NCBI GenBank assembly: GCA_903921785.1
Contig: CAIXRH010000226.1
Location: forward strand, 1-45,638
DNA length: 45,638 nt
Direction: 5' to 3'
Source of the DNA: an uncultured Pseudomonadota bacterium
Lineage (GTDB): Bacteria; Myxococcota_A; UBA796; SXON01
In this document: piece by piece, positions 15,313 through 29,582 of the stretch
Position numbering within the stretch: position 1 is the first letter of the stretch
Layout of the letters: each line of letters starts with the position of its first letter
Program-made: the position numbers and the translations under genes
The notes under the pieces: model-generated
What the model was told of the DNA's origin: nothing
Databases searched by the model: none
The model's input: only the letters and a program-made list of their open reading frames with translations

Positions 15313-16628
15313 CACGCGCTCCCGTACGAGAAGACTGGTACCTGACTGGCGCCGCCGGCGCTCACGTTGGCGAGCTCCCCCTCGGCCACCCGACAGAGAA
15401 ACCCCGCGAGGCGTCCCCGAGCCAGGAACGGACCGACGTCGATGACCCTTGAGTGTACCGCGCCGTCCCGGGCATCGAAGAACGGACCGTGGCTCGGGCG
15501 GACGCGGGCCTGCACGATGCATCCCTCCGCTTCGTCCACCGCCTGCTCCCACTCGCGCCGGCTCACCGCCCACCCGAGGACCACGCCCTTGCCCCCGTGA
15601 CCTTCCGCCGGCTTGAGCACCCAGTTCTCGGGGTCGCGCCGCACCCGCTCGCGCGCCGCGTCGTCCACCCGCGCGGTAAACGGCACGTGGCGGCGGACAT
15701 AGCGGCGTTCACGGTCGCTCAGCGGGAAGCTCGGGTCGTGGAGCAGCGCGAAGATCGCCTTGTTGTGCAGCAGCGCGGTCCGGAGGGAATTGACCATGCA
15801 CACGCGGCCGGCCCGGTACGCGTCGAGCAGCGCGGCACACTCCGAGCGGCGCGCGCGGAGGTCGCAGACGAGGAGGCGGCGGAAGACGACGTCCACCGCC
15901 AGGTCCCCGGCGCGGAGGCGGTCGCCCTCGAAGGAGAGGGTGTCGGGGGTGGCGACCACGGTCGGGTGCCCGGCGCGGCGGAACGCAGCGGCCAACAGAT
16001 CGAACTCGGGGGCGGTGGCGACGCCGGGCAGGTCCACGATCGCGATGGAGAAGCGGCGACGGGGGGCGAGCAGGCTGTCCTTCGGGCCCTGCCGCCGCGC
16101 CTTCGCCCAGATCGCCGCGAGCGCCTGCACCGTGGCGACGACCGCCGGGACCGGGTCGAGGAACCGCAAGTGCGGGAAGGCCGCCGCCGCCGCATCCGCC
16201 GCGAAGATCGGCGCCAACGCCGACGCATAGCCCATCCCCGCCGGAGACTCCGCGTTGAGCTCCAGGAAGCGGGGTACGCCCGCCTCCACGTACGCGTCCA
16301 GCCGGGAGAGCGGCGCGACGTTGGGGAAGCCCGGGTCGATCGCGGCCCACTCGATCGCGTCCGCCGGGATGCCGATCCGCGCGGCGAGGCTCTGGGGTCC
16401 GAGGTGAAGGTCGGCCACCAACGCCCGCCGCAGCTTCTTCAGCAGGGTGTGCATCTGCGCGACCAGGGTGCGCCACCGCCGCTCTTCGGCGAACGGCATC
16501 AAAAGCGGCGTGCGGTGCACGCAGACCGGCTCCGCCCCGTGCAACGCTCCCGCCGCGCGCACCTCGGTGAGGAACGTGGGCCGCGTGGCCGCGGACGCGG
16601 CGGCGCTCCATTCGGTGAGGGCATCCAT
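15312..16628 (-). CDS. circularly permuted ATP-grasp family protein
   Basis: This 438-residue protein has segments typical of the circularly permuted ATP-grasp/glutathionylspermidine-synthase-like group: RFLELNAESPAGMGYASA, FDLLAAAFRRAGHPTVVATP, NSLRTALLHNKAIFALLHD, WVLKPAEGHGGKGVVLGW (nucleotide-binding glycine-rich loop) and a final LANVSAGGASQVPV. These enzymes make amide bonds using ATP. In bacterial operons such proteins often accompany peptide or polyamine ligation, but the substrate here is unknown. The start at 16628 has TACCCT 8 nt upstream and no Shine-Dalgarno. It is divergent from holB by 24 bp and translationally coupled to the exported protein gene at 14392-15312. Confidence 0.75.
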   Translation of the reverse strand: MDALTEWSAAASAATRPTFLTEVRAAGALHGAEPVCVHRTPLLMPFAEERRWRTLVAQMHTLLKKLRRALVADLHLGPQSLAARIGIPADAIEWAAIDPGFPNVAPLSRLDAYVEAGVPRFLELNAESPAGMGYASALAPIFAADAAAAAFPHLRFLDPVPAVVATVQALAAIWAKARRQGPKDSLLAPRRRFSIAIVDLPGVATAPEFDLLAAAFRRAGHPTVVATPDTLSFEGDRLRAGDLAVDVVFRRLLVCDLRARRSECAALLDAYRAGRVCMVNSLRTALLHNKAIFALLHDPSFPLSDRERRYVRRHVPFTARVDDAARERVRRDPENWVLKPAEGHGGKGVVLGWAVSRREWEQAVDEAEGCIVQARVRPSHGPFFDARDGAVHSRVIDVGPFLARGRLAGFLCRVAEGELANVSAGGASQVPVFSYGSA

Positions 16629-16652
16629 CCGTGCGCAGGGTAATGGGGGGCC
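16629..16652. promoter_or_regulatory. 24-bp divergent promoter region of ATP-grasp gene and holB
   Basis: Both -10-like boxes overlap here. On the minus strand TACCCT (16642-16637) lies 8 nt before the ATG at 16628. On the plus strand TAATGG (16641-16646) lies 6 nt before the GTG at 16653. The -35 regions must fall inside the opposing genes. Both transcripts would be nearly leaderless. Confidence 0.4.
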
Positions 16653-17645
16653 GTGGCTCCCGCATTCCCCCTCGTCGGCAACCTCGCGGTCCAGGCGCGC
16701 CTCGCCCAGGCGGCCGACGAAGATCGCCTGCACCACGCCTACCTCTTCGAGGGGCCCGACGGGGTTGGAAAGGCCACGTTCGCCCTGTGGTTGGCGCGGT
16801 ACGTCAACTGCGAGGGCACCCGGCGTCCGTGCGGCGAGTGCCGCTCGTGCCGGCTCATGCTCACCGGCGGCCACCCCGACCTCGTGGTGATCGGCCCCGA
16901 CCCTGAGAAGGTCACCCGAGTGATCTCGGTGGATCAGGCGCACCAACTGATCAACGCGGTGCAGCTGCAGCGCCACAGCGCGAAGCGGCGCTTCGTGATC
17001 CTCGACCCGGCGGATGCCCTCAACGAAGACGCCGCGAATTCCCTGCTCAAGACGCTGGAGGAGCCGCCGCGGGGCACCCAGTTCATCCTCGTCACCGCCC
17101 GGGTGGCCTCGCTCCTGCAGACCATCCGCAGCCGCACCCAGCGGGTGCGCTTCGGGCCGGTGCCCGAGGCAGAGCTCACGGCGTTCCTCGGGGCGCGCGG
17201 GGTCTCCCCGGAGATGGCGCGGATGGCGGGCGGCTCGCTCGGCCAGGCGATGAAGCTGGCCGAAGGTGAAGCCGAAGCGAGAACCACGCTGCGGGACGCG
17301 ATCCTCGACGCCACCGGGCAGCCCCTGGTGAAGCTCTTCGCCCTCACCGAAGCCGAGGGGAAGCGCGAAGAAGGGGTGAACCGCGCCGAGCTGGTGGTCG
17401 ACGTCCTGGAGGAGCTCCTCCGCGACGCCGCCTGCGTGGCCAACGATCGCGACGATCGCCTCCTCCACCCTGCCAAACGTGCGCAGCTCGCCTTGTGGGC
17501 GCGCGCCCTCTGGCCCGGCGGCCACGCCCGCATGGCCCTCGCCCTCGCCTCCGCACGGGACCGCCTTCGGCTCAACGTCAACGGCCGCACCGTGCTCGAG
17601 AGCCTCTTCGCGCAGCTGAACCTGGAGCTCTCCGCCACCCGATGA
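16653..17645 (+). CDS. holB: DNA polymerase III subunit delta prime
   Basis: This 330-residue clamp-loader AAA+ subunit has the Walker A motif GPDGVGKAT (residues 34-42), a four-Cys zinc module (Cys53, 60, 63, 66), FVILDPADALNEDAANSLLK for Walker B, and LKTLEEPPRGTQFILVT for the SRC-preceding region. Delta prime helps open the beta clamp and load it on DNA in the cytosol. The intact GKAT loop is more like gamma/tau than the degenerate E. coli delta prime, as in many non-enteric bacteria; the short length and the tatD neighbour favour HolB. The start is a GTG at 16653. The stop overlaps tatD (ATGA), giving a two-gene operon. Confidence 0.88.
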   Translation: MAPAFPLVGNLAVQARLAQAADEDRLHHAYLFEGPDGVGKATFALWLARYVNCEGTRRPCGECRSCRLMLTGGHPDLVVIGPDPEKVTRVISVDQAHQLINAVQLQRHSAKRRFVILDPADALNEDAANSLLKTLEEPPRGTQFILVTARVASLLQTIRSRTQRVRFGPVPEAELTAFLGARGVSPEMARMAGGSLGQAMKLAEGEAEARTTLRDAILDATGQPLVKLFALTEAEGKREEGVNRAELVVDVLEELLRDAACVANDRDDRLLHPAKRAQLALWARALWPGGHARMALALASARDRLRLNVNGRTVLESLFAQLNLELSATR

Positions 17646-18418
17646 TCGACTCCCATTGCCACCTCGATCCTGGCGTCTACGGCGGAGACGCCGGGGTGGA
17701 CGAGACCATCGCCCGCGCCCGCGCCGCCGGCGTCACCCCGATCCTCACGGTGGGCAGCGGCTACGGCTTCGAGAGCGCAGCGCGCGCCCTCGCGGTCGCC
17801 CGCCGCCACCCCGACGTCCGCTGCTCCGTGGGGCTCCATCCCCACGACGCCAAGGACTACACCGAGGCCCGGCTCGGGGAGCTGCTCGCCCTCGCCGACG
17901 CGCCCGAGGTCCTGGCGCTCGGCGAGATGGGGCTCGACTTCTTCTACGACTCCTCCCCGCGCGACGAGCAGCGCCACGCCTTCCGCGCCCAGCTCCGCGC
18001 CGCGAAAGCGCGAAACCTCCCGGTGATCATCCACGACCGGGAGACCGCCGGCGAGACCCTGCGCGTGCTCGACGAAGAGGGCGCCTGGACGACGGGCGTG
18101 CTCTACCACTGCTACACCGGCGACGTGGCGCAGATGGAGGCGATCGTGGAACGAGGCGGGTACATCTCGATCCCGGGCATCGTCACGTTCAAGAACGCGG
18201 AGACGATGCGCGAGGTGGCCGCGGCGGTGCCGGAGGAGCGCCTCCTGGTGGAGACGGACAGCCCCTTCCTCACCCCGGTGCCGCACCGTGGGCGAAAGAA
18301 CGAGCCGGCGTACGTCGCGCACACCCTGGCCTGCGTGGCGGGCCTGAGAAAAACGACGGTGGCCGCGCTCGACGCGACCACCACCGCCAACACGCTGCGT
18401 TTCTTCCGCTGGCGCTGA
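17642..18418 (+). CDS. tatD: TatD-family metal-dependent hydrolase (DNase)
   Basis: This 258-residue TIM-barrel hydrolase begins MIDSHCHLDP, with the metal-binding HxH pair. It has VGLHPHDAKD, LGEMGLDFFYD (metal-bridging Glu), PVIIHDRE, LYHCYTGD and the C-terminal VETDSPFLTPVP, all hallmarks of TatD. Members are 3'-5' exonucleases or deoxyribonucleases of the cytosol. The length is normal. The ATG overlaps the holB stop as ATGA, and the holB-tatD order is common in bacteria. It ends convergent with the small basic-protein gene, with a hairpin at the junction. Confidence 0.92.
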   Translation: MIDSHCHLDPGVYGGDAGVDETIARARAAGVTPILTVGSGYGFESAARALAVARRHPDVRCSVGLHPHDAKDYTEARLGELLALADAPEVLALGEMGLDFFYDSSPRDEQRHAFRAQLRAAKARNLPVIIHDRETAGETLRVLDEEGAWTTGVLYHCYTGDVAQMEAIVERGGYISIPGIVTFKNAETMREVAAAVPEERLLVETDSPFLTPVPHRGRKNEPAYVAHTLACVAGLRKTTVAALDATTTANTLRFFRWR

Positions 18419-18424
18419 GGGCGC

Positions 18425-18444
18425 CCGCGAACGTTACTTCGCGG
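18425..18444. terminator. hairpin between convergent tatD and small gene
   Basis: CCGCGAA-N6-TTCGCGG is a perfect 7-bp inverted repeat starting 6 bp after the tatD stop. It overlaps the last codons of the minus-strand gene at 18434. There is no T-run, so it is a candidate bidirectional terminator only. Confidence 0.4.
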
Positions 18445-18598
18445 ACTTCTTCGCGGCCTCGTTCGCGTCGGCCTCGGCGGTGTGAATCGGGAAAACGGGC
18501 GTGGAGCCCTTGTTCTCGCGCTGGTTGCGCGCCTTGCGACCCGCGTTCTTGTTGCGGATTTCGCGGCGAAGGGTCGTGAGGGCGGTCTTGGAAGCCAT
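18434..18598 (-). CDS. small basic protein of 54 residues
   Basis: A short reading frame encodes MASKTALTTLRREIRNK, then NAGRKARNQRENKGSTP, VFPIHT and an Ala/Glu/Lys tail. It has a good GGAG site 7 nt before the ATG and typical genomic codon use. The N-terminal two thirds are strongly basic, with about a dozen Lys/Arg, and the tail is mixed charge, suggesting a nucleic-acid- or ribosome-binding protein. I recall similar short conserved proteins (KTALKTLRK.., GRKAKN.., TPxFPxHT) in related bacteria, but cannot name a family. It is monocistronic and convergent with tatD. Confidence 0.7.
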   Translation of the reverse strand: MASKTALTTLRREIRNKNAGRKARNQRENKGSTPVFPIHTAEADANEAAKKSAK

Positions 18599-18695
18599 GG
18601 GGACTCCGGATTTCGAGGCGGCGCGATCTATGGGGCGAGGGGGCTGGCGTCAAGGGACCGCTTGCGCGTCGGCATGACTGTGGTAGACGATCCCC

Positions 18696-19466
18696 ATGGT
18701 GATCCTCCTCCTCGCCCTCTCCGCCTGCGACCGGTTGGACGCGGCATCCGGCGTGGTGGACGATCTGGGGGACACCACGGTCGCCCAGGCCATCTACCTC
18801 GGCGCGGACCTCCCGCCCGGCGTCACCCTGCCGGAAGATTCGGGAATCTACACCTCCCTCTGCAAGGTCTTCCTCGCCGAGGTGGCCGATGCGTCGGATG
18901 TCTCCGACGCTCCCGTGAGCGGCGCCAAGGTCAGCTTCCTCGCGGGGAACACCGGAAAGCTCCCCTTCGCCGAGGACGACGACGGCGAGTACCTCCTCTA
19001 CAGCACCGACGGCCTGGAGTACACCCCCGGGCAGGACGCCGTCGTGCGCTTCGAGGTGGCCGGCGAAGCGGGCGAGCTGCACATCAAGGCCCCCGAGGCC
19101 CCTTCGTTCACGGTGTCCGACGGGCTGCGCGCCCACGAGCCCGCCCAGATCACCGTCACCGAAGGGCGCTTCCCGAACCTCGTGGCGATGGTCTACGACC
19201 TCGATCACGACGTGCAGTCGTGGGACAACGTGCCCGACGACGTGGAGACCAGCGCCGAGCTCAACCCGGCGGACAGCGAGCCGATCACCACCCTCGCCAT
19301 CCCCGGCGAGGCGTTCCTCCGGGCGAGCACCTACGTGATCGGGGTGGCCGGGCTCAACACCGCCCCCGCCGAGGACATGACCGGCGTCAACGCGGCGATG
19401 AGCACGTTCGCCGCCGGGCAGCTCGCGATCCAGGTCGTGAGTGTGGACGCGGCGGCAACTCCCTGA
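18696..19466 (+). CDS. lipoprotein of unknown function
   Basis: This 256-residue protein has the very short signal peptide MVILLLALSAC, with the lipobox Cys at 11. The mature protein is acidic and beta-rich, with strands such as AKVSFLAGNTGKLPF, VVRFEVAGEAGELHI, FTVSDGLRAHEPAQITVTEG and ASTYVIGVAGLN. Two Ig-like or carboxypeptidase-regulatory-like domains are possible. It has one further Cys (TSLCKVFLAEV). No family is recognised. The ATG is preceded by TAGACG with 6 nt between and by TTGCGC 16 bp further upstream, a plausible leaderless promoter. It is a single-gene unit. Confidence 0.65.
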   Translation: MVILLLALSACDRLDAASGVVDDLGDTTVAQAIYLGADLPPGVTLPEDSGIYTSLCKVFLAEVADASDVSDAPVSGAKVSFLAGNTGKLPFAEDDDGEYLLYSTDGLEYTPGQDAVVRFEVAGEAGELHIKAPEAPSFTVSDGLRAHEPAQITVTEGRFPNLVAMVYDLDHDVQSWDNVPDDVETSAELNPADSEPITTLAIPGEAFLRASTYVIGVAGLNTAPAEDMTGVNAAMSTFAAGQLAIQVVSVDAAATP

Positions 19467-19808
19467 GGTAGATGCGAGAAGGGCCAGCCGCGCCGCGGAT
19501 CAGCCGGCGAGTTCGGTGCCCCCCTCGACTGCGCTCACGATCACCGCGGCGAGAGCGAGCGACCAAGGCCGTCTTGGTTGCGAAGTAGGGCGCCAGACCC
19601 ACGTCGGCGCTCCGGAGCACCGCCCCAGGCGCCGGCGGGCGAAGCCCGCCGTGAACCGTCACGCTACGAGAGACGGCCCGGTCCCGAACGTCGTCGACGC
19701 AGCGGGACGGCGCGGCGCGAGGCGGAAGTCTCCTTCCCCCGCCCCTCGACGGCGCTGGCGCTCGTGGTCGAGACGGTCGCGCTTCCGCTCCCACGTTAGG
19801 CACGTAGA
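19467..19808. other. 342-bp intergenic region with two perfect hairpins
   Basis: No convincing gene is visible here. Two inverted repeats stand out: ACCAAG-N5-CTTGGT at 19562-19578, and CGGCGGGC-GAA-GCCCGCCG at 19633-19651, a perfect 8-bp stem with a GAA triloop. The region is slightly less GC-rich than the genes. The end near 19796-19808 (GTTAGG, CACGTAGA) may be the promoter of the next lipoprotein gene. A small RNA is possible but unproven. Confidence 0.4.
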
Positions 19809-21341
19809 ATGCTGCTACTGCTCCTCGCGTGCTCAGCCCACGGACCCGACGACACGTCCCAGCCGGCATCGACCGACACCGGGGCCGACGCCGCGACGGA
19901 TTCGGCCGACTCCGCAGACTCCGGCGATTGGGGCGACACCGGCGACTCGGGCGTCGACACCGCGGCCGCCGCCCCGACCCTCACCATTCTCGCGCCGGCG
20001 GACGGCCAGACGTGGTTCCTCGACACCCGCTACGACGTCGTGGTGAGCCTCACCGGCGCGGATGCCGCCGAGGCGACGGTCACCGGGGCCGAAGCCACGT
20101 GCGAAGCGCTGAACGCCGGCGTGCTCCACTGCTCCGTCACCCCGCACGTCGCGGAGACCGTCACGGTGTCGATCGCGGCGACGGGCCCCGGCGGCACGGG
20201 CACCGCGAGCGTGGCGGCCACGGCCCGGGCGGCGGTCGGGATCATCCCGGAGGGCGAGGCGTTCGCGATGGGCGCCTACGAGGTGATGGACGAACGCTGG
20301 TTCGCCCCGATCGTGGACGGGAAGTTCAACCTGGCGCAGTCCTACGGCACCGGCGGATACACCCAGGAGGCCTGGCAGGACTGGGCGGCAGCCGCCGGCG
20401 TGAGGACGATGACCCGCCCAGGCTGGGACTGGGCGGACCCCTGGGCGCTCTCCGACGACGCCACCCTCGCCGCCCTCGCCGCCCGCCCGGAGCTGGCCTG
20501 GTGGGAGCTGCCCGAGACCCCGGTCGAGGACGACAGCTACGCCGACGAGGTGGCGACCGTGGTGGCCCGCATCCGCTCCTTCGACGACCGGCCGACCCAG
20601 ATGTACTTCTGGACCAGCAGCACCGCCGAGCAGATCGCCACGTACATCCCCGATGTGCAGGTCATCTCCCCGGGGACGTACCCCGAGCACGCCTGCCAGC
20701 CGCAGCCGTGGATCCGCTGGCGCATCACCTCGGCGCGCGATGCGGTGGCGCTGGCGGGCTACTCCGAGGCGGAGCGGCCGGTGGTGGGCACCGCCGATCT
20801 CTACGCCCAGCCCGAGACGAGCTGCCCCGAGCGGATCGCCGAGCTCGCCCAGGTGCGGATGAACCCGCTCGCGATGATCGCGGCCGGCGCCCAGGGGGTG
20901 CTCTACTTCGCGTGGTGGTACGCGGCGAACACCCTCGATCCCGCCTGGGCGACCTCCGCCGAGGCCACGGGGGACCTCATCATGGGCGAGTCCGGCCTCG
21001 GCTACGCCGCGATCCACGGGGAGCCGCTCGGGGACCTGCCCGTCACGGTCACCGGCGGGCCGGCGCTGAGCGAAACGTTCACGCCCGCGCAGACCACCAC
21101 GGCGGTCCAGTATGCGTCCATCCACGCCGCGGGATGGGACTACGCCGGGACCCGCTTCGTGGTGGCGGTGAACTACACCAACGAGGCGGTGACCGCCGAG
21201 ATCGGCGGCTTCCCGAGCGTCACCACCGGCGTGGAAGCGGTCGGCGAAGCGCGCGCCCCGGCGGCGACCGACGGCGTCATCGAGGAGACGTTCGACGCGT
21301 GGGGCGCACACGTGTACCGGGCGCCGATCGTCGTCGAGTAG
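19809..21341 (+). CDS. lipoprotein with glycoside-hydrolase-like barrel
   Basis: This 510-residue protein starts with MLLLLLACS, an extremely short lipoprotein signal (Cys8). An Asp/Thr/Ser/Ala linker full of DTG and DSG units runs to about residue 53, followed by an Ig-like domain at about 55-140 (LTILAPADGQTWFLDTRYDV, VTVSIAAT). Residues 150-440 resemble a TIM-barrel carbohydrate-active or cell-wall enzyme, with Trp-rich strands (TMTRPGWDWADPWAL, LAWWELPETP, MYFWTS, GVLYFAWWYAAN). A beta domain with NYTNEAVTAEIGGF follows, typical of C-terminal sandwich domains of glycosidases. Catalytic residues cannot be assigned; Glu and Asp at strand ends (ELPETPVED) are candidates. It is surface-anchored. 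Confidence 0.6.
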   Translation: MLLLLLACSAHGPDDTSQPASTDTGADAATDSADSADSGDWGDTGDSGVDTAAAAPTLTILAPADGQTWFLDTRYDVVVSLTGADAAEATVTGAEATCEALNAGVLHCSVTPHVAETVTVSIAATGPGGTGTASVAATARAAVGIIPEGEAFAMGAYEVMDERWFAPIVDGKFNLAQSYGTGGYTQEAWQDWAAAAGVRTMTRPGWDWADPWALSDDATLAALAARPELAWWELPETPVEDDSYADEVATVVARIRSFDDRPTQMYFWTSSTAEQIATYIPDVQVISPGTYPEHACQPQPWIRWRITSARDAVALAGYSEAERPVVGTADLYAQPETSCPERIAELAQVRMNPLAMIAAGAQGVLYFAWWYAANTLDPAWATSAEATGDLIMGESGLGYAAIHGEPLGDLPVTVTGGPALSETFTPAQTTTAVQYASIHAAGWDYAGTRFVVAVNYTNEAVTAEIGGFPSVTTGVEAVGEARAPAATDGVIEETFDAWGAHVYRAPIVVE

Positions 21342-21354
21342 GCGGACGGCGCCG

Positions 21355-21430
21355 CCCCTTCGCCATTCTCACCCCGTCGGCTCCTCGACCGCCGACGCCG
21401 TCCGGGCGGCAAGGCGGGCCTCGACCGCCA
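21355..21430 (+). repeat. dispersed intergenic repeat, family B, copy 1
   Basis: The family B core is GCCATTCTC, then a CCCCGTCGG box, then CTCCTCGACCGCCGACGCCG. A second shorter CTCGACCGCC follows at the right. It fills the gap between the convergent stops at 21341 and 21439. It shares the CTCCTCGACC element with family A. Confidence 0.65.
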
Positions 21431-21438
21431 CTCCCCCC

Positions 21439-22053
21439 TCACCTCTCGTCGAGGCGGGCACGGAGCTCGGCGAGCTCCCGCTCCAGCTGCGCGATGCGCG
21501 CTTCGTCGTCGCGGAGGCGCTTGTCCTGCGCCTGAACCGCCGCGACGGCCATGCTGGTATACCCGTAGAGGTCCACGTGGTCGCCGTCGACGCTCACCGC
21601 CGGGCTGCCCGCGTCGAGGTCGTCGATGATGAAGCCGAGGTGGGCCCGTTCGCCCGGCGGCGCGTGGTTGTAGGCCCAGGTCGCGAGGTGGAGCTGCAGC
21701 GCCTGGGCGCCGGCCGCGTCGCGCTCGGCCTCGTTGAGGTAGCGGATGTCGTGCTTGTAGGCACGCCGGGAGATGGGGCAGCCGCCTTCCTGGGCGGTCG
21801 GGTCTTCCGCGGCGCAGGTGAGCAGCGCGTTGCAGTCATCCTCGGGATCACACGCGGCGCCCTCGTCGGTACAGCTGCTTCCCGCCTCCTCTTTGTCGCA
21901 GAGCGCCACGCCGTCGGTCGGACCCGTGTAGCCGTTGCAGACCGGGTCTCCGCACGTGAAGAACCACTGGAGCTTCGGCTCGCTGGGCGTGCAGCGGGTC
22001 ACGCTCAGCAGGAACGGGAGCGCCAAGGCGAGGACGAAGACGTGGCGGGACAT
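21439..22053 (-). CDS. lipoprotein with S74-type intramolecular chaperone domain
   Basis: This 204-residue protein has its ATG at 22053, preceded by GGAGG. A signal peptide leads to the lipobox-like TRC (Cys21), then a Cys-rich region (eight Cys at about 34-92). From about residue 95 the sequence SRRAYKHDIRYLNEAE, then LATWAYNHAPPGERAHLGFI and LYGYTSMAVAAVQAQDKRL match the peptidase-S74/tailspike chaperone domain. A C-terminal coiled coil (IAQLERELAELRARL) follows. In S74 domains a Ser and a Lys five residues later cleave the chain autocatalytically after trimerisation. Ser95 and Lys100 have that spacing. Such domains are best known at the C-termini of phage tail fibres; placement on a bacterial lipoprotein is unusual. 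Confidence 0.7.
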   Translation of the reverse strand: MSRHVFVLALALPFLLSVTRCTPSEPKLQWFFTCGDPVCNGYTGPTDGVALCDKEEAGSSCTDEGAACDPEDDCNALLTCAAEDPTAQEGGCPISRRAYKHDIRYLNEAERDAAGAQALQLHLATWAYNHAPPGERAHLGFIIDDLDAGSPAVSVDGDHVDLYGYTSMAVAAVQAQDKRLRDDEARIAQLERELAELRARLDER

Positions 22054-22087
22054 GCTACCCTCCGAAGAACGGCTTGGAAGGCAGCAA

Positions 22088-22104
22088 GCGGCGTGCCACG
22101 CCGC
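22088..22104. terminator. perfect hairpin between two minus-strand genes
   Basis: GCGGCGT-GCC-ACGCCGC, a 7-bp stem with a 3-nt loop, lies 7 bp beyond the stop of the 22111 gene and upstream of the S74 lipoprotein start. On the minus strand it is followed by TTGCTGCCTT, only moderately T-rich. It is a possible terminator. Confidence 0.4.
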
Positions 22105-22110
22105 CATCCG

Positions 22111-22515
22111 TCACTTCGCCCGGACCCGGTTGTTCTTCGGGAGGTGCTCCAGCTCCACCAGGCCGAGCTCCTCCAGGAGCGGCGGCAGGTACATCCCGAA
22201 GCGGCCCCGGTAGCCCTTCCGCTGGCCGTACCAGCCACCTACCGGGTTCTCGGGAGAGCGCCCCCAGGCCTCGACCGTGCCGGCCGCGGGCTCTTTTCCT
22301 TCGTCGGCCGCGCCGAGCGCCATCCAGTCGCCGTGGGCGCGCAGCATGGCCGGGAGATCCTCGAGCACGCGAGCGAGGTAGGTGAGCTTCGTCGTTCCCA
22401 CCATGCAGACGAGCAGCGGCGGGGCCACGGTGTCGTCGCGGTAGATCGTGTACTCGGCAGTTCCCGGGGGGGTCTTCAGGGTCCAGGGGTCGTTTTTGGT
22501 GCCGGTGCCGGCCAT
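22111..22515 (-). CDS. conserved hypothetical protein, 134 residues
   Basis: Start at the ATG at 22515, with GGAG upstream. The N-terminus MAGTGTKNDPWTLKTPPGT matches a compact cytosolic family that I recall in several proteobacteria. That family also has LLVCMVGTTKLTYLARVLED, RAHGDWMALGAADE, VEAWGRSPENPVGGWYG and a final GRFGMYLPPLLEELGLVEL. The conservation of Trp, Gly and Asp suggests a folded domain, but no biochemical role is known to me. It lies 40 bp downstream of the AraC-type gene on the same strand, so the two may be co-transcribed and the regulator may control it. A hairpin follows the stop. Confidence 0.65.
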   Translation of the reverse strand: MAGTGTKNDPWTLKTPPGTAEYTIYRDDTVAPPLLVCMVGTTKLTYLARVLEDLPAMLRAHGDWMALGAADEGKEPAAGTVEAWGRSPENPVGGWYGQRKGYRGRFGMYLPPLLEELGLVELEHLPKNNRVRAK

Positions 22516-22555
22516 GGGGGCTCCTCGCCGCGGGGGGTGGGAGCCGCGGGGTGCG

Positions 22556-23407
22556 TCATCTTCGCTTGGACTTCCCGCGTCCGTCTTGTACGAACACGAC
22601 AACATTGGGCGCGAAGTCGGCGGGGCCGGCGGGGGGGAAGTAGCCGCGGTAGCCGCGGGGCACGCCGCCGCTCATGCGCCGGAAGTCCCGGATGAAGTGG
22701 GCCTGATCGAAGTAGCCGGCCGCGAGGGCGACATCTGCGAGCGGGCAGCCGGGGTCGCGCATCAGGGCTCGGAGCGCGGCCTGGAAGCGCAGGATTCGCC
22801 CGACCACCTTCGGCGGGATGCCGAGCTGGCGCGCGAACCACCGATCGACCTGCCGCACGGACGCGCCGGCGGCGGCGGCGACATCCGCCACCTCGGCGCG
22901 CCCGTCGCTAGCCGTGAGGGCGGCGAGCGCCCGTTCGAAGCCGGGGCGCCCGGCGTCGAGGCGGAGGGACTCCAGGAAGAAGGCGTCGAGTCGGGCGGCG
23001 GCGGCGTCAGGATCGAGGGCCGCCACCGCGGCTTCCACGGCCTCCACACCCGGGCCGAAGACCGCGGACGGCGTCGGCGTGGCCCCGGTGAACGGGCGGA
23101 GCTCCTGCCGTACGAACGGGCCGACGCCGCCGAGGCGGAAGCGCACGCCCACGAGATGCACCCGCCCGCGCTGCTCGATGCGGATCGGGACGAGTCGCTG
23201 GGCGTCCAGGTTGGAGCCGGCATGCTCCGTAGCCGCCCCGCCGATCACCCGGCGGGTGTAGGGCACGCCGAAGTTGAGGATGAGGTCGGCGCGGCCATCG
23301 ACGAAGACGTCGACGCCGAGGTCCACCGGATCGGGATCGGGCTCCACGAACCAGTAGGACTCGATGTAGGCGGCGAGGGCTGGGCTCGGAGGGCGGAGCT
23401 GGTACAC
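22556..23407 (-). CDS. AraC-family transcriptional regulator
   Basis: This 283-residue regulator has its start at the GTG at 23407. The N-terminal 130 residues (PALAAYIESYWFVEPDPD, DGRADLILNFGVPY, VHLVGVRFRLGGVGPF) form a sensing domain of the type often found before AraC HTH regions (DUF6597-like). The C-terminal domain at about 165-262 has both HTH motifs: VADVAAAAGASVRQVDRWFA, then LADVALAAGYFDQAHFIRDF and FRRMSGGVPRGYR, which is the AraC signature. It binds DNA in the cytosol; its inducer is unknown. The most likely target is the adjacent 134-residue gene or an unlinked locus. Confidence 0.85.
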   Translation of the reverse strand: MYQLRPPSPALAAYIESYWFVEPDPDPVDLGVDVFVDGRADLILNFGVPYTRRVIGGAATEHAGSNLDAQRLVPIRIEQRGRVHLVGVRFRLGGVGPFVRQELRPFTGATPTPSAVFGPGVEAVEAAVAALDPDAAAARLDAFFLESLRLDAGRPGFERALAALTASDGRAEVADVAAAAGASVRQVDRWFARQLGIPPKVVGRILRFQAALRALMRDPGCPLADVALAAGYFDQAHFIRDFRRMSGGVPRGYRGYFPPAGPADFAPNVVVFVQDGRGKSKRR

Positions 23408-23446
23408 CGGGAGGTTGTACTACGGCAGGCGGGACCTGTGCTCGGG

Positions 23447-23535
23447 CACGCCGCCCGCCCGGCCATTCTCGCCGCCGGCGGCGCCTCGACCGCCGACGCC
23501 GCGAAACGGGCACGGCGCAGCTCGACCTCCACCCC
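23447..23535 (+). repeat. dispersed intergenic repeat, family B, copy 2
   Basis: GGCCATTCTCGCCGCCGG is followed by GCGCCTCGACCGCCGACGCC, then GCGAAACGGGC and CTCGACCTCCACCCC. The tail CGCGAAACGGGC is shared with copy 3 at 29729-29797. It lies between the AraC-type gene start and the stop of the next minus-strand gene at 23548. Confidence 0.65.
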
Positions 23536-23547
23536 TTCGACCTTCGC

Positions 23548-24057
23548 TCAGTCCCAATCCCAGTCGCCGCCGTCGTCGCCGTGCGCGCCGGTGGGGTGGG
23601 CGCTGTCGGGCGCGGTGGGCAGGTAGAGGTCGGGGCTGAGCCATACGTCCGGCGGGGCCGAACCATCCGGGACGACATCGCGACCGTAAGGGTGTGAACC
23701 GGGCCCCGCGCCCGGGAAGACGCCGCCGCCGAGGATGCCCTTGCACACCACCGCCTCCACCCGCTCCTGGAGCGACTGCACCGGCGTGCACCACGCATCC
23801 ACCCCGACGAGCACCTGGGTTTCCCCGAATAGCCAGTCGTAAGCCACCGGCACAACCTCCACCTCAGCGCCCTCCACGGCGAGGCAGCGCGCTTCGGCCT
23901 TGCAGAGCCCGTCCACCACGAGCGGCGTGTCGACCACGTGTTCGCGGACGGCCGCTTCATCCACCTCGGGGCCCAGGCCGAACGTGGGGATCCGCAGGAG
24001 GCAGCAGCCGCCGCAGGACGCGAGGAGGATGGCGGTGCAACCGATGGTACGGGGCAT
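23548..24057 (-). CDS. small lipoprotein
   Basis: This 169-residue protein begins MPRTIGCTAILLASCGGCC, a short signal with lipobox LASC (Cys15). The mature part has several Cys (CKAEARC, WCTPVQ, VCKG) that may form disulfides. Strands such as VVDGLCKAEARCLAVEGAEV and VVPVAYDWLFGETQVLVGVD are followed by an acidic Gly/Asp/Trp-rich tail. No family is recognised. TATAAG lies 9 nt before the ATG at 24057 with no Shine-Dalgarno, one of the clearest leaderless-type promoters in the window. The longer open frame upstream lacks a signal and is not preferred. Confidence 0.6.
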   Translation of the reverse strand: MPRTIGCTAILLASCGGCCLLRIPTFGLGPEVDEAAVREHVVDTPLVVDGLCKAEARCLAVEGAEVEVVPVAYDWLFGETQVLVGVDAWCTPVQSLQERVEAVVCKGILGGGVFPGAGPGSHPYGRDVVPDGSAPPDVWLSPDLYLPTAPDSAHPTGAHGDDGGDWDWD

Positions 24058-24421
24058 CCACGGGGGCTTATACGGTTCGACCGCGATCGCCGCTCGCCCG
24101 GCGAGGACGCGACACCGGGGAGGCGAGATTCCCGGCGTCGCGAGTTGCGCCACTGTTGCCTCGGCAAACGTGAGGGTCGGCGCTGGGTCCTGCCGCCACG
24201 AGCGCCCGGCCCTCGCTGCGCTCGGCCGGTTCGCCCGTGACGTCACACGCATGGCCCACTTCCGGGCCCGTCACCCCCCGCTGGACCATCGGCGAACAAG
24301 GCAAGGTTTTTACGCGACGCCGGAAAGCCCGCTGTTGCTTGCTGCACAGGCTCGCTCCGCGTCGCCGCGACGTGGGAACGATCCTCATCCGGCACGGACC
24401 GGATTCGCGCGCCGCGAACCG
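24058..24421. other. 364-bp intergenic region, no gene seen
   Basis: The left end carries the promoter of the 23548-24057 gene. The middle has CCGGCC and GGCCGG flanking CTCGCTGCGCTC, and the palindrome TGACGTCA (within GTGACGTCACAC). The segment 24285-24350 is less GC-rich and includes TTTTTACG, which is unlike the surrounding genes. No convincing reading frame or known RNA is recognised. It may be a remnant of older coding sequence or a mobile fragment. Confidence 0.35.
24067..24072 (-). promoter_or_regulatory. -10 element of a probably leaderless promoter
   Basis: The minus strand reads GTATAAG, then nine bases, then ATG at 24057. It matches the sigma70-type -10 in five of six positions. 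The leader would be only a few bases long. Confidence 0.45.
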
Positions 24422-25696
24422 TTACGGAAACACCTGGAGATAGCCGTCGTCGCGGAGATCGACGTTCGCGAGAGAGATCACGGCGCCGCGCTCGTCGAGG
24501 AGGGCGAGATCGAGGGCGGCGGTCGTCGCGGGATCGGCGAGGGGCAACTCGAGGGTCACCGTGTCGATCACCGCCGAGAGCTCCTCTTCAGACGCTACGA
24601 TCTCACCCACGGTGGTGTCGCCCTCGCGCACCCGGAGGCCCAGCCGCCAGGGGCGGTAGGCGGGCGTGCTGCCACGGTTCACCACCTCCACGGTCAGGCC
24701 CGTCGCCGTCCGCTCCGCGCGGGTGACCACGTAGCGCGGACCGGAGAACCCAAGGTACTCGTCGACCGAGTCGCGCCAGGCGTCGGGGACGTCGCGGGAC
24801 TTGTTGTTCACCAGCAGCACGTGGTGGTCGAGCAGCCAGTGAAGGAGCCAGCGAACCTGGCTCTCTTCGTAGGACCCCCACTGCCAGAGGACCATGTCGC
24901 CGCAGGTCTCCACGGCCACCGGGGCCGTCTTCCAGGTGTCGAGCGCGGCGGCGGCCTCCAGGCGATGCTCGTAGAAGTCGTCGTGGTGGTTCCAGTTCTC
25001 GCGGAGGTCGCCCCAACAGTCGGCGCGCCAGCCGAAGCCGCGGTCGAGCCCCAGGCGGAGGTGCGCCTCGCCGCCCTCCACGGTCGAGCCCACGTTCATC
25101 AGCACCGGCGTGGACGGAAAAGCTTGGGCAAAGGCGTCGAGGATGCGCGTGGTGCTGGCGGTGGAGGGGTACGGCACATCCGCCGGGGTGTCCGCCCACT
25201 CGCCGGCCTCGCCGACAAAGCCGACGTCCACCTGCTCGATCCGCGGGTCGCCGTCGTAGCGGGCGCCGAGCGCCGCCACGGTCTGCTCCACCGCGGCGAG
25301 GAACGCCTCGTCGTCGTAGCTCGCGGTGGTCTCCTCCACGGGCATCACGCGGAACGCGAAGGTCTGCCCGTTGTCGTCGGCCGTCTCGATCGCCCCGTCG
25401 ATGGCCTCCCAGCGGATGTCCCCGGGCGTCGGCTCCAGCTCGTCCCACCAGAAGCGCTCGTAGGCGACGCGCATCGGCGGGCTGTTCGGGTTGGCGACGC
25501 CGTAGAACTCCTCCCAGCCCTGGTGCGGGTTGTCGAGGACCGCCCGGCTCTCTTCACCACAGTACACCGCGCCGACCGCGCCGCCGGAGACGGCCGTGCA
25601 GTCGGGGAGCGGGTCCGGGTCCCACAGCGGACCGTCCCAGCGGTGACCGGACGGTGCGCAGGCGACGAGGAGGAGCGGGAGCGGCAGGTGACGCAT
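24422..25696 (-). CDS. lipoprotein with DUF4832/DUF4874-type glycosidase-like domain
   Basis: This 424-residue protein begins MRHLPLPLLLVACAPSG, with the lipobox Cys at 13. The catalytic-like region starts at about 55: VLDNPHQGWEEFYGVAN, YERFWWDELEPTPGDIRW, FAFRVMPVEETT, EQVDVGFVGEAGEWADT, TPVLMNVGSTVEGGEAHLRL, GFGWRADCWGD, VAVETCGDMVLWQW. These match the barrel of DUF4874/DUF4832 proteins, which resemble beta-galactosidase-type glycosidases. GEAGEW has a Glu at the usual acid/base position. The C-terminal 100 residues form a beta-sandwich (LTVEVVNRGSTPAYRPW). It is surface-anchored and probably acts on a polysaccharide. The start is supported by the signal peptide. The activity is inferred. 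Confidence 0.7.
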   Translation of the reverse strand: MRHLPLPLLLVACAPSGHRWDGPLWDPDPLPDCTAVSGGAVGAVYCGEESRAVLDNPHQGWEEFYGVANPNSPPMRVAYERFWWDELEPTPGDIRWEAIDGAIETADDNGQTFAFRVMPVEETTASYDDEAFLAAVEQTVAALGARYDGDPRIEQVDVGFVGEAGEWADTPADVPYPSTASTTRILDAFAQAFPSTPVLMNVGSTVEGGEAHLRLGLDRGFGWRADCWGDLRENWNHHDDFYEHRLEAAAALDTWKTAPVAVETCGDMVLWQWGSYEESQVRWLLHWLLDHHVLLVNNKSRDVPDAWRDSVDEYLGFSGPRYVVTRAERTATGLTVEVVNRGSTPAYRPWRLGLRVREGDTTVGEIVASEEELSAVIDTVTLELPLADPATTAALDLALLDERGAVISLANVDLRDDGYLQVFP

Positions 25697-25793
25697 GTCG
25701 GCCTCGCCGTCTTTGACCCGCCGGGGCGGGGTTGTCGAAAGGGCGGTCAGGCCGCTCAACGGCCGGTGGCGCCCCAACGCCGCCCCGCCCACC

Positions 25794-26378
25794 TCAGAAG
25801 CGCTTCGCCACGCTCACCCCGGCGGTGACCTGCCCCGGCTGGGTGAGACAGTTGAAACAACCGTAGCCGACCTCGCCCTGGAGGACCCAGGTCTTCCCGA
25901 TGCGCCCGGCGATCCCCACCGGAAGGCGCAACGGGAACGAGTCGACGCCGATCCGCGCGCTGGGGGTGACCGTGAGCCAGAGGTCGTCGTTGAGGGCGAA
26001 GGCCGTGGGCACCGCCATGCCCGTCCACGCCCAGCCCGCCTCCCACTCCACGCCCACCCGCACGAGCGGCTTGCGGTAGAACATCCAGCGCACGACGGCG
26101 CCGCCCCCGGGCCAGGTGCTCGTGCCCTGGGTCTCCACGAAGGCCATCGCGCCGGCCGACCAGGTGTCATCGAAGCTGTGGAGGTACCAGAACTGGGCGC
26201 CGGCCCCCGTCTCGCCTTCAAACGCATCGGTGGTGGTGTGGTACTCGGTGCCCAGGCCGACCTCATTGCCGAGACCCTCCATCGGCAGGGGCGCGCGGAA
26301 GTACCCGCCGGGGACGCAGGCGCCGAGGAGGAGGAGGGGCAGCGCGGAGAGGAAGCCAGGGAGGACGCCGTGGGACAC
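25794..26378 (-). CDS. outer-membrane-type beta-barrel lipoprotein
   Basis: This 194-residue protein has a GTG start at 26378 and the signal MSHGVLPGFLSALPLLLLGAC (Cys21 lipobox). The mature protein has alternating hydrophobic/polar strands with aromatic residues (AGAQFWYLHSFDDTWSAGAM, VRWMFYRKPLVRVGVEWEAG, LWLTVTPSARIGVDSFPLRL). The C-terminus ends in Phe (VTAGVSVAKRF), which suits a small outer-membrane beta-barrel recognised by the BAM machinery. A barrel carrying a lipobox is somewhat unusual; the Cys may instead mark a normal signal. Two Cys (CFNCL) lie near the end. It is divergent from a second barrel-like gene at 26537, across a gap with a direct repeat. Confidence 0.55.
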   Translation of the reverse strand: MSHGVLPGFLSALPLLLLGACVPGGYFRAPLPMEGLGNEVGLGTEYHTTTDAFEGETGAGAQFWYLHSFDDTWSAGAMAFVETQGTSTWPGGGAVVRWMFYRKPLVRVGVEWEAGWAWTGMAVPTAFALNDDLWLTVTPSARIGVDSFPLRLPVGIAGRIGKTWVLQGEVGYGCFNCLTQPGQVTAGVSVAKRF

Positions 26379-26435
26379 GTGGAGGCTCGGGAGGGTTTCC
26401 CGGAGCTATCGCTCGGACCCACCGACCAAAACGAA

Positions 26436-26466
26436 CGGCGTGTAACGGGGGGATGCGGCGTGTAAC
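26436..26466 (+). repeat. tandem direct repeat CGGCGTGTAAC, 20-bp period
   Basis: The 11-mer occurs at 26436-26446 and again at 26456-26466, exactly 20 bp (two helical turns) apart. It lies in the divergent gap between two barrel-like genes. Such spacing is typical of sites bound by one dimer or two cooperating regulators. A related TGTAAC occurs on the minus strand at about 7214-7219. Confidence 0.5.
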
Positions 26467-26536
26467 AGCGGTTGGGCTCGTGCCGACTCCGCGGGTAGGG
26501 CGTCGGCGTTCCGAATCGCCCCCTCCGCGGAGACCC

Positions 26537-27286
26537 ATGCTCGCCCTCCTCGTCCCACTCGCCTCCGCCGCCTCACTCCCCGCCGGCTCGATGTTCTCGC
26601 TCGCGAACGCCCTGGACAGCCACGAGGGGTCGGCGTCCGTCTCGAGCGGCGTCACCTACGCCCCGGCGGACGACGGGCGAGAAGCGTGGGCGCAGGTCGG
26701 CGTCGGCGCCCAGGTCGCCATCACCGATCGCCTGGCCGTCGGCGGCAGCGGCGCCTGGTGGATCGACGACGCCAAGACCGGTCACGTGGACCTCCGGTAC
26801 AACGTGGTGAACCGCGACGTGTTCCGCGTAGCCGGCTGGGCCAGCGTCGGGAGCGTCCTGCCCGTGGGCTACCTCTCCTCCTGGGGGATCGGCGCCCTCG
26901 CCGAGCCCCGGCACGCTCGCGACTACTCGTACCAGCGCACGCAGTCCGGGATGGTGGCCTACGGTATCGCGTTGGAGGCAGGGAACGATCGCTTCACCTT
27001 CGACACCTCCCTGCCGATGGTCTGGACCTGGACCGACTACAACGAGACCCCCGGCCGGTGGACGGACTTGTTCATGTACTCTTCCGCCGGGCTAACCTGG
27101 CATCTGAGCGACCGGCACGCCCTCCGCCTGAGCAGCGATGCGTTCCTCGGCCTGCCGACGCTCGCCTACACCTGGACCCCCGACCACGCGTTCATCCGAA
27201 CGACCCTCGCCGCGAACAACGCCCTCGGCGAGCCCATCGAGTACAGCCAGGTGCACCTCACGCTGCAGGGCGGGGTGCGGTGGTAG
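26537..27286 (+). CDS. exported outer-membrane-type beta-barrel protein
   Basis: This 249-residue protein has its start at the ATG at 26537, where GGAG precedes it and the signal peptide MLALLVPLASAASLPAG begins. The mature chain alternates strands with aromatic girdle residues: REAWAQVGVGAQVAITDRLA, GGSGAWWIDDAKTGHVDLRY, VFRVAGWASVGSVLPVGYLS, LTWHLSDRHALRLSSDAFLG. It ends in Trp (TLQGGVRW), as many outer-membrane barrels end in an aromatic residue. This predicts a roughly 10- to 12-strand barrel. Its ligand or transport role is unknown. It pairs divergently with the barrel-like lipoprotein at 25794-26378, possibly under shared control via the direct repeat. Confidence 0.6.
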   Translation: MLALLVPLASAASLPAGSMFSLANALDSHEGSASVSSGVTYAPADDGREAWAQVGVGAQVAITDRLAVGGSGAWWIDDAKTGHVDLRYNVVNRDVFRVAGWASVGSVLPVGYLSSWGIGALAEPRHARDYSYQRTQSGMVAYGIALEAGNDRFTFDTSLPMVWTWTDYNETPGRWTDLFMYSSAGLTWHLSDRHALRLSSDAFLGLPTLAYTWTPDHAFIRTTLAANNALGEPIEYSQVHLTLQGGVRW

Positions 27287-27389
27287 GGGGCTGGCGGCGC
27301 CCCATCGCCTTGCTCGCCAGCCACGTCGGCGGTCGAGCCACCACGGTCGGCGAAACGAGCGGGGCCGGCGGCGTGCCCGAGCCACGCCT

Positions 27390-29582
27390 TCACCGCCAGC
27401 TGGGCACATCCGTCCGGCCGATCGCCCCCGCCGCGTCCCACGCCAACGCCTCGCTCAGCACACGCCCGGAGAGGTCCTCGGCAACCGGAACGCCGAGGAG
27501 CCACGCCACGGTGGGCGCGACGTCCTCCAAGCGGGCAGGGCGGGTGCGGTGCCCGCCTGGGATGTCTTCGCCCACGAACGTGAGGGTGCCGGAGCCGGTC
27601 CCGGTGCCCAGCTCCGCGAGCACGATCACCTCGCCGGGCTGACGGGCTTCGAGGAGCGGAAGGAGCTGCTCGGCGGGCCTGTCCAGGAAGGCCACGGTCA
27701 AGTCCGACGTCGTCGCCGCGCTCCCTTTTGCGCCCGGCCACGACACGACCGTGGCCGGGTGGCCGTTCGCCGCCGCGACCGCCCAGATCGCGGGGCCGCG
27801 GGAGCTACGGCCCGACACCACCGTTGCCCACTGGGCCGCGGCGCGGGCGCTCGCGGAATGTTCCAGGGAGAAGGAGGCCGCGTGTTGAAGCTTGCTCCCG
27901 GCGGCGCCTCGCTTCCGCGGCTCCATCCCGAGGAGCAGCACCCTCCGCGGCGACGCCTTCGCCAGCGGCGTCTCGCGAGGCGCCACCGCATGAAACGGCC
28001 GGGGAACCCCCGAGACCTCGGTGTAGTCGGCCTCGATGTGCCCACCGGCGCGGAGGAAGCCCCAGGAAGCGCGCGGCGAATCCCAGATCACCAACTGGCT
28101 GCCGAGGGGGTGCACCAGGGTGCCCACGGTAGCGTACGTCGTACGGGTGGAGAGCCAGTGGAAGCCGATGTCGGGGCTGCGCCAGGCCGTCCGCTGGGCG
28201 TGGCCTTCTTCCAGCGCGACCACCAACGGGCCCGGCTCCGCGGCGTCCCGGCGCTCCAGCCACCGGGCGAGGAGCGCGTCCTCGTCGGGCCGGGTGGACG
28301 CCTTGTCGAAGCTCACGGCGCGCCACAAGAACCGCGCGCCAAAACCCAGGGAGACCAGCAACAATGCCGCGGCGATCCACCGGGGCACCCCGCCCTGGCG
28401 AAGGCACCACACCACCGAAAGGATGAACGCGGGCAGGGCGACAAGCCCCTCCCGTTGGTCAAAATACCAAGGGCTCCCGAACTGTTTGTGCACCATCTGC
28501 ACCGACACCAGCCCACCCACCGCGAAGAGGACCAGCGTCGTGTACAGCGGCGCTTCCGGCCGGGCGAGCCAGGCGGCCGCCGAGCCCCTCAGCGTGGACC
28601 GGCTCCGCCAGAGCTGAACCACCACGCCGACCACGGCCACCGGGGCCGCCCAGTGCAGCGCGTACACGGTGTCCCAGTACGAACGATCGGTGGGGCCCCA
28701 GGCCACGCCCAGGCCGAGGACGCGGTCCCAAAGGGTGGCGAAGAGGCCGTCGATCGGCACCATCACCACCAGCGGCGGGAGGAGATCGTTCACCTGGCAA
28801 CGATCGAAGCGGAGGAGGATGTTCAGCCCGTGGTGCGCGGTGAAGCTGGCGACATACGCCCACCACCCGCCGACTGCGAACACCATGGGGGCCAGGGTGG
28901 CCGCGGCGAAGCGGGCGAAGGCAGCGCGATCCCGGTGGCGGGGCAGGTGCACGAGCAGCGCCAGGCCCACGGCCATGGGGAAGATCATCAGCTGCGCACG
29001 CGCGAAGTAGGCGAGGCAGGCCCACACCCCGAGCTCCAGCCCCCAGCGTAGGCTCACGTTGGCGCGGTTCTGGGCGAAGCGCCAGAGGCCGAGGGTGAGG
29101 CAGCTCCAGGCCAGGGGCTCGGTGTGCGGGGTGGCGCTCCATTGGGCGAAGTGCGGGCTGAGCCAAAGCAACGCGGCAAAGAGGTGCCCCAGGTGCAGGA
29201 ACGGGCGTCCGCTGGCGCCGGCCGGGGTGAGCTCGCGACCGAGGAGCCACGCACCGATGCCCGCGACGCCGTAGAAGAACCACGGCAGCCAGTGCGCGGC
29301 CACCTGGATGTCCACCAGCCGGCCGGCGTAGCCGAGGAGCAGGGGCCACAGCGGGTAGATCCCCGTCGGCCCCGGGAAACGCTCGTAGCCGAAGTTGTAG
29401 AGGGAGAGATTGGAGACCAGCCCGTGGCCGCGCTGCACCTGCTCGGCCACCCCCAGGTAGTACCCTCCGTCGACGCTCATGCCCGACGTGGCGCGGGTGG
29501 CGGCGGCCCGTGCGCCCCACGTCGCGAGCAGCAGGAACAGAAATGCAAAGTCGAAGCTTCGGATCGCGCGACCAAGGTTCAT
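27390..29582 (-). CDS. membrane glycosyltransferase with partial phosphatase-like C-terminus
   Basis: This 730-residue protein has its ATG at 29582 with GGGGAG 9 nt upstream. Residues 1-430 are a polytopic GT39/ArnT-type glycosyltransferase: about 10-12 membrane helices, the early SVDGGYYLGVAEQVQ loop with the expected catalytic Asp38, and loops containing TEPLAW and WDTVYALHW. Residues 430-545 are soluble. The C-terminal ~190 residues carry LLLGMEPRKR and finally RLEDVAPTVAWLLGVPV, DLSGRVLSEAL. That end is the signature of alkaline-phosphatase/sulfatase-like phosphodiesterases, but the metal-binding N-terminal part of that fold is missing or degenerate. It is a fusion or a decayed domain. 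The likely role is transfer of a sugar from a lipid carrier in the inner membrane. Confidence 0.75.
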   Translation of the reverse strand: MNLGRAIRSFDFAFLFLLLATWGARAAATRATSGMSVDGGYYLGVAEQVQRGHGLVSNLSLYNFGYERFPGPTGIYPLWPLLLGYAGRLVDIQVAAHWLPWFFYGVAGIGAWLLGRELTPAGASGRPFLHLGHLFAALLWLSPHFAQWSATPHTEPLAWSCLTLGLWRFAQNRANVSLRWGLELGVWACLAYFARAQLMIFPMAVGLALLVHLPRHRDRAAFARFAAATLAPMVFAVGGWWAYVASFTAHHGLNILLRFDRCQVNDLLPPLVVMVPIDGLFATLWDRVLGLGVAWGPTDRSYWDTVYALHWAAPVAVVGVVVQLWRSRSTLRGSAAAWLARPEAPLYTTLVLFAVGGLVSVQMVHKQFGSPWYFDQREGLVALPAFILSVVWCLRQGGVPRWIAAALLLVSLGFGARFLWRAVSFDKASTRPDEDALLARWLERRDAAEPGPLVVALEEGHAQRTAWRSPDIGFHWLSTRTTYATVGTLVHPLGSQLVIWDSPRASWGFLRAGGHIEADYTEVSGVPRPFHAVAPRETPLAKASPRRVLLLGMEPRKRGAAGSKLQHAASFSLEHSASARAAAQWATVVSGRSSRGPAIWAVAAANGHPATVVSWPGAKGSAATTSDLTVAFLDRPAEQLLPLLEARQPGEVIVLAELGTGTGSGTLTFVGEDIPGGHRTRPARLEDVAPTVAWLLGVPVAEDLSGRVLSEALAWDAAGAIGRTDVPSWR

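Follow-up and report, generated by a model that had tools for sequence, protein, structure and literature searches.

Self-cleaving S74 domains have been described in phages, in MYRF and in a Bdellovibrio fibre (PMC3742443, PMC8326128, PMC10769870), and such domains are understood mainly as aids to trimeric fibres. What does such a domain do at the C-terminus of a short, cysteine-rich bacterial protein with a signal peptide? This question is raised by a gene in the window, by which we mean the whole stretch of 45,638 nucleotides analysed here, from an uncultured bacterium. We consider it fairly probable that the gene encodes an exported, probably lipid-anchored and disulfide-rich protein carrying its own removable S74/ICA chaperone-protease, which would cut between Ile94 and Ser95 after trimerising.

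The gene and its C-terminal domain

The reading frame, the strand and the Ser95/Lys100 numbering given by the initial annotation agree with the translation (Table 1). The GGAGGG sequence 4 nt before the ATG at 22053 favours this start over an upstream in-frame ATG at 22107. The protein is composed, in order, of a signal peptide, Cys21, the segment from Cys34 to Cys92, Pro93-Ile94, Ser95-Arg-Arg-Ala-Tyr-Lys100 and a globular part followed by a long C-terminal helix. Its own genome holds one copy of the S74-lipoprotein gene. A candidate second copy (L002) was rejected as a chance match (E 0.66); it has no visible S74-like frame, and its longest frames resemble an unrelated enzyme and the antisense of that enzyme.

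Table 1. Positions of the gene and its features in the window
Feature	Position	Strand	Basis
Whole gene, 204 aa plus stop	21439..22053	-	Open frame and translation; 96 full-length relatives, 27-65% identity
Shine-Dalgarno-like GGAGGG, 4 nt 5' of the ATG	22058..22063	-	Read from the sequence
Signal peptide, residues 1-20 (MSRHVFVLALALPFLLSVTR)	21994..22053	-	Sequence; same element in most relatives, usually with a standard lipobox
Cys21, candidate lipidated cysteine, atypical lipobox VTR-C	21991..21993	-	Sequence; residues at -1 in relatives
Eight-cysteine module, Cys34 to Cys92	21778..21954	-	Cys conservation in aligned rows; standalone structure prediction
Predicted scissile bond Ile94-Ser95	21769..21774	-	Ser95 aligned with the S74 serine; Ser in 97/97
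Lys100, predicted dyad lysine	21754..21756	-	Lys in 97/97; aligned with the S74 lysine
S74/ICA globular part, residues 95-161	21571..21771	-	Pfam, profile-profile and structural match
C-terminal helix and coiled coil, residues 162-203	21445..21570	-	Helix in the model; heptads

The initial annotation had proposed an S74-like domain that a profile search should recover. Pfam Peptidase_S74 does match the window protein, narrowly passing its gathering cut-off (22.1 bits against 22, E 1.9e-4), and it aligns residues 97-148 with profile positions 3-51, so that Ser95 corresponds to position 1 and Lys100 to position 6. An hhalign comparison of a 71-row family alignment with eight fibre-type S74 sequences of the same phylum (probability 99.1, E 1.7e-17) likewise placed Ser95 on S1 and Lys100 on K6; its template was trimmed to begin at the Ser, which partly sets the alignment start by construction, and we trust the register because Pfam gives the identical one independently. 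A six-frame S74 search of the same genome gave no match at E <= 0.001, phmmer found no significant S74 entry among PDB sequences, and a profile of 53 relatives against the PDB had its best matches in a coiled coil (E 0.3) and a phage tail fibre (E 0.66), with S74 not significant. We attribute the weak Pfam score to a divergent S74 subfamily. The Pfam model matches 29 of 53 core sequences at E 0.01 and 26 of the 97 full-length relatives at E <= 0.001. When 140 genomes of the phylum were searched for the S74 family, 13 were positive, at 16 places; these include members of the eight-cysteine family described below (G029 and G128) and three places that belong to, or resemble, a second cysteine-rich group (two in G099, one in G138).

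Structural comparison points to the same domain. The AlphaFold monomer model of residues 20-204, in which model residue 1 is protein residue 20, has a mean pLDDT of 94.6 and a long helix at model residues 143-184. Foldseek against the PDB ranked the ICA domain of MyRF first (7dc3, E 0.021), with nothing at E <= 0.001; against viral models it found S74 proteins down to E 3.9e-4, and 11 models lay at E <= 0.001. The top four VIA-align entries are all ICA domains (7dc3, Z 7.2; 3gw6, 6.8; 4uw8, 6.2; 3gud, 6.1). These scores, below 8, are middling, but the next row is a bare helix at Z 4.0, and we accept an ICA fold with a long C-terminal helix on the basis of this gap and of the agreement with the sequence profiles. 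Pfam, profile-profile and structural evidence thus concur, and the assignment of the C-terminal domain to S74/ICA is strongly supported.

The coiled coil of the initial annotation proved real by its heptad pattern: over residues 173-199 of the 97 members, large hydrophobics make up 72% of the a/d positions versus 4.5% of the other positions. Position 183, a heptad position, is a large hydrophobic in 84% of members and Asp in the window protein. S74/ICA domains are reported to trimerise via their C-terminal helices, after which a Ser-Lys dyad cuts before the Ser (PMC3742443, PMC8326128, PMC6972908, PMC10769870). By analogy, the coiled coil and S74 domain of the window protein would form a trimer. 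No beta-helix stalk precedes the S74 domain in the monomer model, from which a trimeric stalk cannot be fully excluded; the segment 5' of Ser95 consists of three short strands in the compact eight-cysteine module, and only two residues lie between Cys92 and Ser95.

Export signal, eight-cysteine module and family

The signal peptide recognised in the initial annotation is clear in the sequence. Lipoprotein lipoboxes end in Gly, Ala or Ser followed by Cys. Among 98 non-fibre copies, the window included, 72 pass a signal-peptide-plus-Cys rule, 21 fail it and 5 are cut upstream. Gly, Ala or Ser precedes the Cys in 67 of the 72, and several of the 21 show a lipobox by eye. The claim of a lipoprotein is therefore well founded for the family, whereas for the window copy, with Arg at -1 of Cys21, it is weakened to a likelihood. 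Its close relatives L003 and L004 also have atypical lipoboxes, with Thr and Arg, respectively, before the Cys, and these three cases together leave lipidation here likely but unsure.

The cysteine-rich region, also reported in the initial annotation, contains eight cysteines (C34-C92) that are largely kept: all eight are present in 78 of 101 aligned rows, seven in 17 and fewer in 6. Modelled alone, this module has a mean pLDDT of 88.3. It matches no Pfam family at E <= 1, and its profile is not significant against the PDB (one row at E 0.25). Foldseek against the PDB gave nothing at E <= 0.001 (best E 2.4), and a structure comparison with 14 chains gave no row with a Z of 2 or more. We do not claim a new fold, since small disulfide folds are easily missed.

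The module is linked to S74. With a profile built solely from S74-linked copies, which makes the search lean to such copies and could miss divergent stand-alone versions, a module-only search of 140 genomes gave 37 places in 25 genomes: 34 are followed by S74, two are copies with a stop codon and one is marginal (G027:C205, E 9.9e-4). The 22 genomes of taxonomic family f12 hold 32 module places, all shared with the phylum-wide protein search. S74 is unbroken at 29 of these and carries a frameshift at one (G261); the other two are the stop-codon copies. In the latter (G015:C117, or L223, and G049:C221, or L222), the stop comes right after Cys-Pro-Lys, at the position of the catalytic Ser. L223 has no clear S74 remnant 3' of the stop, and L222 has a frameshifted remnant that is about 87% identical to L034. 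To judge from these reading frames, the stop would yield the same product that self-cleavage would leave, which is suggestive only, coming from two draft assemblies; both assemblies are incomplete, and the two copies may be decaying genes or errors.

The family is widespread. Searched at the protein level, 81 of 377 genomes of the phylum gave matches, and in at least five of these (G010, G072, G083, G161 and G192) the match covers the S74 part alone, in frames of 521-1288 residues. Two conserved peptide patterns, searched against 84,980 species with one genome apiece, gave 73 loci. Forty-six of them are titled Myxococcota, Myxococcales, Deltaproteobacteria, Sandaracinaceae or Polyangium, and the rest mostly have unspecific proteobacterial titles. 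These titles suggest that the phylum is Myxococcota. The Polyangium loci are from two cultured strains. Loci with Klebsiella, Oligoflexia or Rhodobacterales in their titles are identical in sequence to loci that the phylum-wide search assigns to the family or order of the window itself, and one locus (L148) has a Euryarchaeota title. The 101-row alignment was made from loci L001-L105 without L002 (the chance match) and L094, L098 and L099 (no tblastn match). The 97-copy set is also without L102, which is cut before the Ser, and the long fibre-type proteins L097, L100 and L101. The first set also leaves out the two stop-codon copies, G261:C549, G323:C665 and G356:C130. Both Ser and Lys are present in G261:C549, which is frameshifted later within S74, and in G323:C665 (L171); G356:C130 (L240) also has both, with an SD motif. 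L179 is an S74 C-terminal fragment only.

Upstream of the module the family varies. Between 17 and 487 residues precede the first module Cys, and no more than 60 do so in 19 of the 97 members; some of these upstream regions are overlong as a result of placing starts at the first ATG. At E <= 0.001, Pfam detects Kazal_1 in 18 of the 97 members, Kazal_2 in 14, antistasin in 9 and pacifastin in 3, with overlaps; L058 and L061 carry both Kazal and antistasin. A stricter Kazal pattern retains 14 copies, all in f12, and the three pacifastin copies (L019, L033 and L041), two of which score below Pfam's cut-off, are all in f53. This confinement of Kazal to f12 and of pacifastin to f53 points to few evolutionary events. 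An Aminotran_3 match in L024 was discarded as an artefact of a frame extended too far upstream. The window protein itself shows no Kazal, antistasin or pacifastin domain at E <= 10, so a protease-inhibitor role is a lead from its relatives and not a property of this protein.

A further group (L093, L094, L095, L096, L185, L194 and L240) looks exported and keeps Ser and Lys; its upstream region is of another kind, and it carries a Ser-Asp (SD) motif. It may represent a second, separate coupling of S74 to a cysteine-rich lipoprotein. In a tree of 108 rows, 94 of the 97 lipoprotein-type rows lie behind one fork (support 92/85, not starred), and L093, L095 and L096 fall with fibre-type S74. This would be weakly in favour of a single origin of the lipoprotein S74, the tree having few alignment columns and an unsettled bootstrap. 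In the same tree, the S74 domains of L097 and L101 (G161 and G083), fibre-type frames of more than 1100 residues, sit on a long branch and are the closest to the lipoprotein S74. Fibres of this type are a possible source of the lipoprotein S74 domain.

The Ser-Lys dyad and the proposed course of cleavage

Ser95, Lys100 and Gly140 are each kept in 97/97 aligned lipoprotein-type copies. In the 101-row alignment they are the most constant positions (100/100 rows reaching them), followed by Tyr128 and the cysteines. The catalytic Ser and Lys have the S-x4-K spacing, and the Ser/Lys pair that the initial annotation noted at the autoproteolytic spacing is upheld by this retention and by the register from Pfam and hhalign. 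Every examined lipoprotein-type copy that reads through the dyad positions has both residues; two further copies have the stop there. Position 126 is Tyr, Trp or Phe in 97/97 and position 128 is Tyr in 96/97, and these two resemble the Tyr pair at the cutting site described for MyRF (Y615/Y617; PMC8326128), a likeness drawn without residue-by-residue alignment.

The same residues bear on whether the S74 domain merely trimerises without cutting, in which case the mature protein would be the whole trimer, with cysteine-rich heads and S74. We regard this as unlikely, although it has points in its favour. The Asp of the SDxxxK motif is Arg in the window protein and is absent from 94 of the 97 members, the three with Asp (L093, L095 and L096) lying outside the main branch. 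There is also no beta-helix stalk before the Ser, and Asp and stalk are features of the best-studied cutters in the sources cited here; in MYRF the Asp after the Ser is described as strictly conserved (PMC3742443). We take the missing Asp to weaken the claim to a standard S74, not the claim to working like one. As for the stalk, cutting in endoNF is described as depending crucially on R897, an Arg in the upstream beta-helix, and the stalk residues of MyRF are described as playing no role in it (both PMC8326128); from the latter, absence of a stalk need not prevent cutting. Against plain trimerisation stands the presence of both dyad residues in 97/97 copies, the relatives being 27-65% identical to the window protein, since a plain trimer module would have no need of both. 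In the reported systems the dyad is what cuts: MyRF S587A and K592A proteins are uncleaved (PMC8326128), and cleavage of Bdellovibrio Bd3182 is blocked by S782A (PMC10769870). Helix mutants that disturb the trimer likewise block cutting (PMC6972908).

We therefore favour self-cleavage, which might proceed as follows. After export, the signal peptide would be removed and Cys21 probably lipidated. The N-terminal module would fold with its eight cysteines, and the C-terminal coiled coil would gather three chains. Once the S74 trimer had formed, Ser95, aided by Lys100, would cut its own chain before Ser95. The cut is predicted to leave a cysteine-rich part held at the membrane, about 74 residues long with Pro93-Ile94 at its end, and to free a trimer whose chains have about 110 residues each. 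Of the two, the N-terminal product is likely the functional one, probably serving as a binding or protease-inhibitor-like module, and S74 would aid or check folding and assembly and then be discarded. The trimer and the shedding of the C-terminus proposed in the initial annotation would thus follow from the known behaviour of S74/ICA domains, and the surface placement proposed there is one of three candidate locations, beside the periplasm and the medium.

The roles of the two products could also be reversed, with the freed S74/coiled-coil trimer doing the work, as a signal or binding protein that is released, and the cysteine-rich part acting as no more than its tether. S74 and the eight-cysteine module are indeed constant in the family and the preceding region is variable, as this would suggest. 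However, in phages and MYRF it is the N-terminal part that is known to do the work (PMC3742443), some members have recognisable inhibitor domains upstream, and the two stop-codon copies lost a working S74 yet kept the N-terminal reading frame, so we judge such a reversal improbable. That a decaying prophage left the gene behind as a remnant of its tail-fibre gene is hardly credible: S74 is best known from phage fibres and PHROGs ranks a tail-fibre and a head-fibre family highest, but the gene is intact, widespread and furnished with a signal peptide, phage records give one partial match only (a single record at E 0.01), and the Pfam-matched neighbours among the 8 proteins scanned, 5 of them without a match, are TatD, DUF6855 and AraC-type genes.

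The DUF6855 gene and the AraC-type regulator, which carries DUF6597, lie directly 5' of the S74 gene on the same strand (22111-23407, minus), with a 57-nt gap. Window frames of at least 90 aa from 15001-29000 were compared with the other loci (L032 onward) at E <= 1e-6. Only three had relatives elsewhere, all overlapping the S74 gene itself, and no relatives of the DUF6855 and AraC-type neighbours were found in the flanks of other loci. Among the 25 frame clusters listed for 72 named loci and the window, every neighbour is confined to 5 or fewer of the 73, and the largest clusters overlap the S74 gene in some frame, by coordinates. No conserved neighbourhood having been found, we do not take the AraC/DUF6855/S74 order as meaningful. 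Two other genes nearby encode proteins without a Pfam match at E 0.01: a 510-aa lipoprotein-like protein convergent with the S74 gene (19809-21341, plus) and a 456-aa protein (24422-25792, minus).

Relation to known S74 systems

The favoured self-cleaving lipoprotein shares with the MYRF ICA domain (7dc3) the ICA fold, Ser and Lys five residues apart, a C-terminal coiled coil and a membrane-tied precursor. MYRF, by contrast, is a transcription factor of eukaryotes; its beta-helix stalk is partly wound, Asp follows the Ser, and its membrane-retained part is C-terminal, whereas that of the window protein would be N-terminal. Phage endosialidase and tail-fibre chaperones (3gw6, 4uw8 and 3gud) have the same domain fold, dyad and C-terminal position. 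In these, a beta-helix or other fibre part precedes the cut, while in the window protein a disulfide-rich module ends two residues before the Ser. The S74-type MAT fibres of Bdellovibrio are also bacterial and exported, with a C-terminal S74, and Bd3182 is reported to self-cleave; as described, however, MATs are long trimeric fibres with SDxxxK (PMC10769870), unlike the 204-aa, cysteine-rich, lipoprotein-like window protein. Kazal, antistasin and pacifastin inhibitors stand upstream in the same polypeptide in some relatives. In literature on S74 with lipoproteins, Myxococcota or inhibitor domains, no short, stalkless, disulfide-rich version appeared among the matches listed.

Here, a small disulfide module is paired with an S74 that has an intact dyad and a changed Asp, in a family mostly missed by the Pfam model. 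We tentatively suggest, as a possibility we would not yet bet on, that this family is a widespread class of lipid-anchored, disulfide-rich and partly inhibitor-bearing proteins with a stalkless, self-removing S74 folding device, in which two copies fixed the cut product by a stop at the Ser. The short window protein is well suited to asking whether cutting requires a stalk or the Asp. If the self-cleaving reading is true, the use of the S74 device extends beyond fibres, to exported bacterial proteins of a widespread family.
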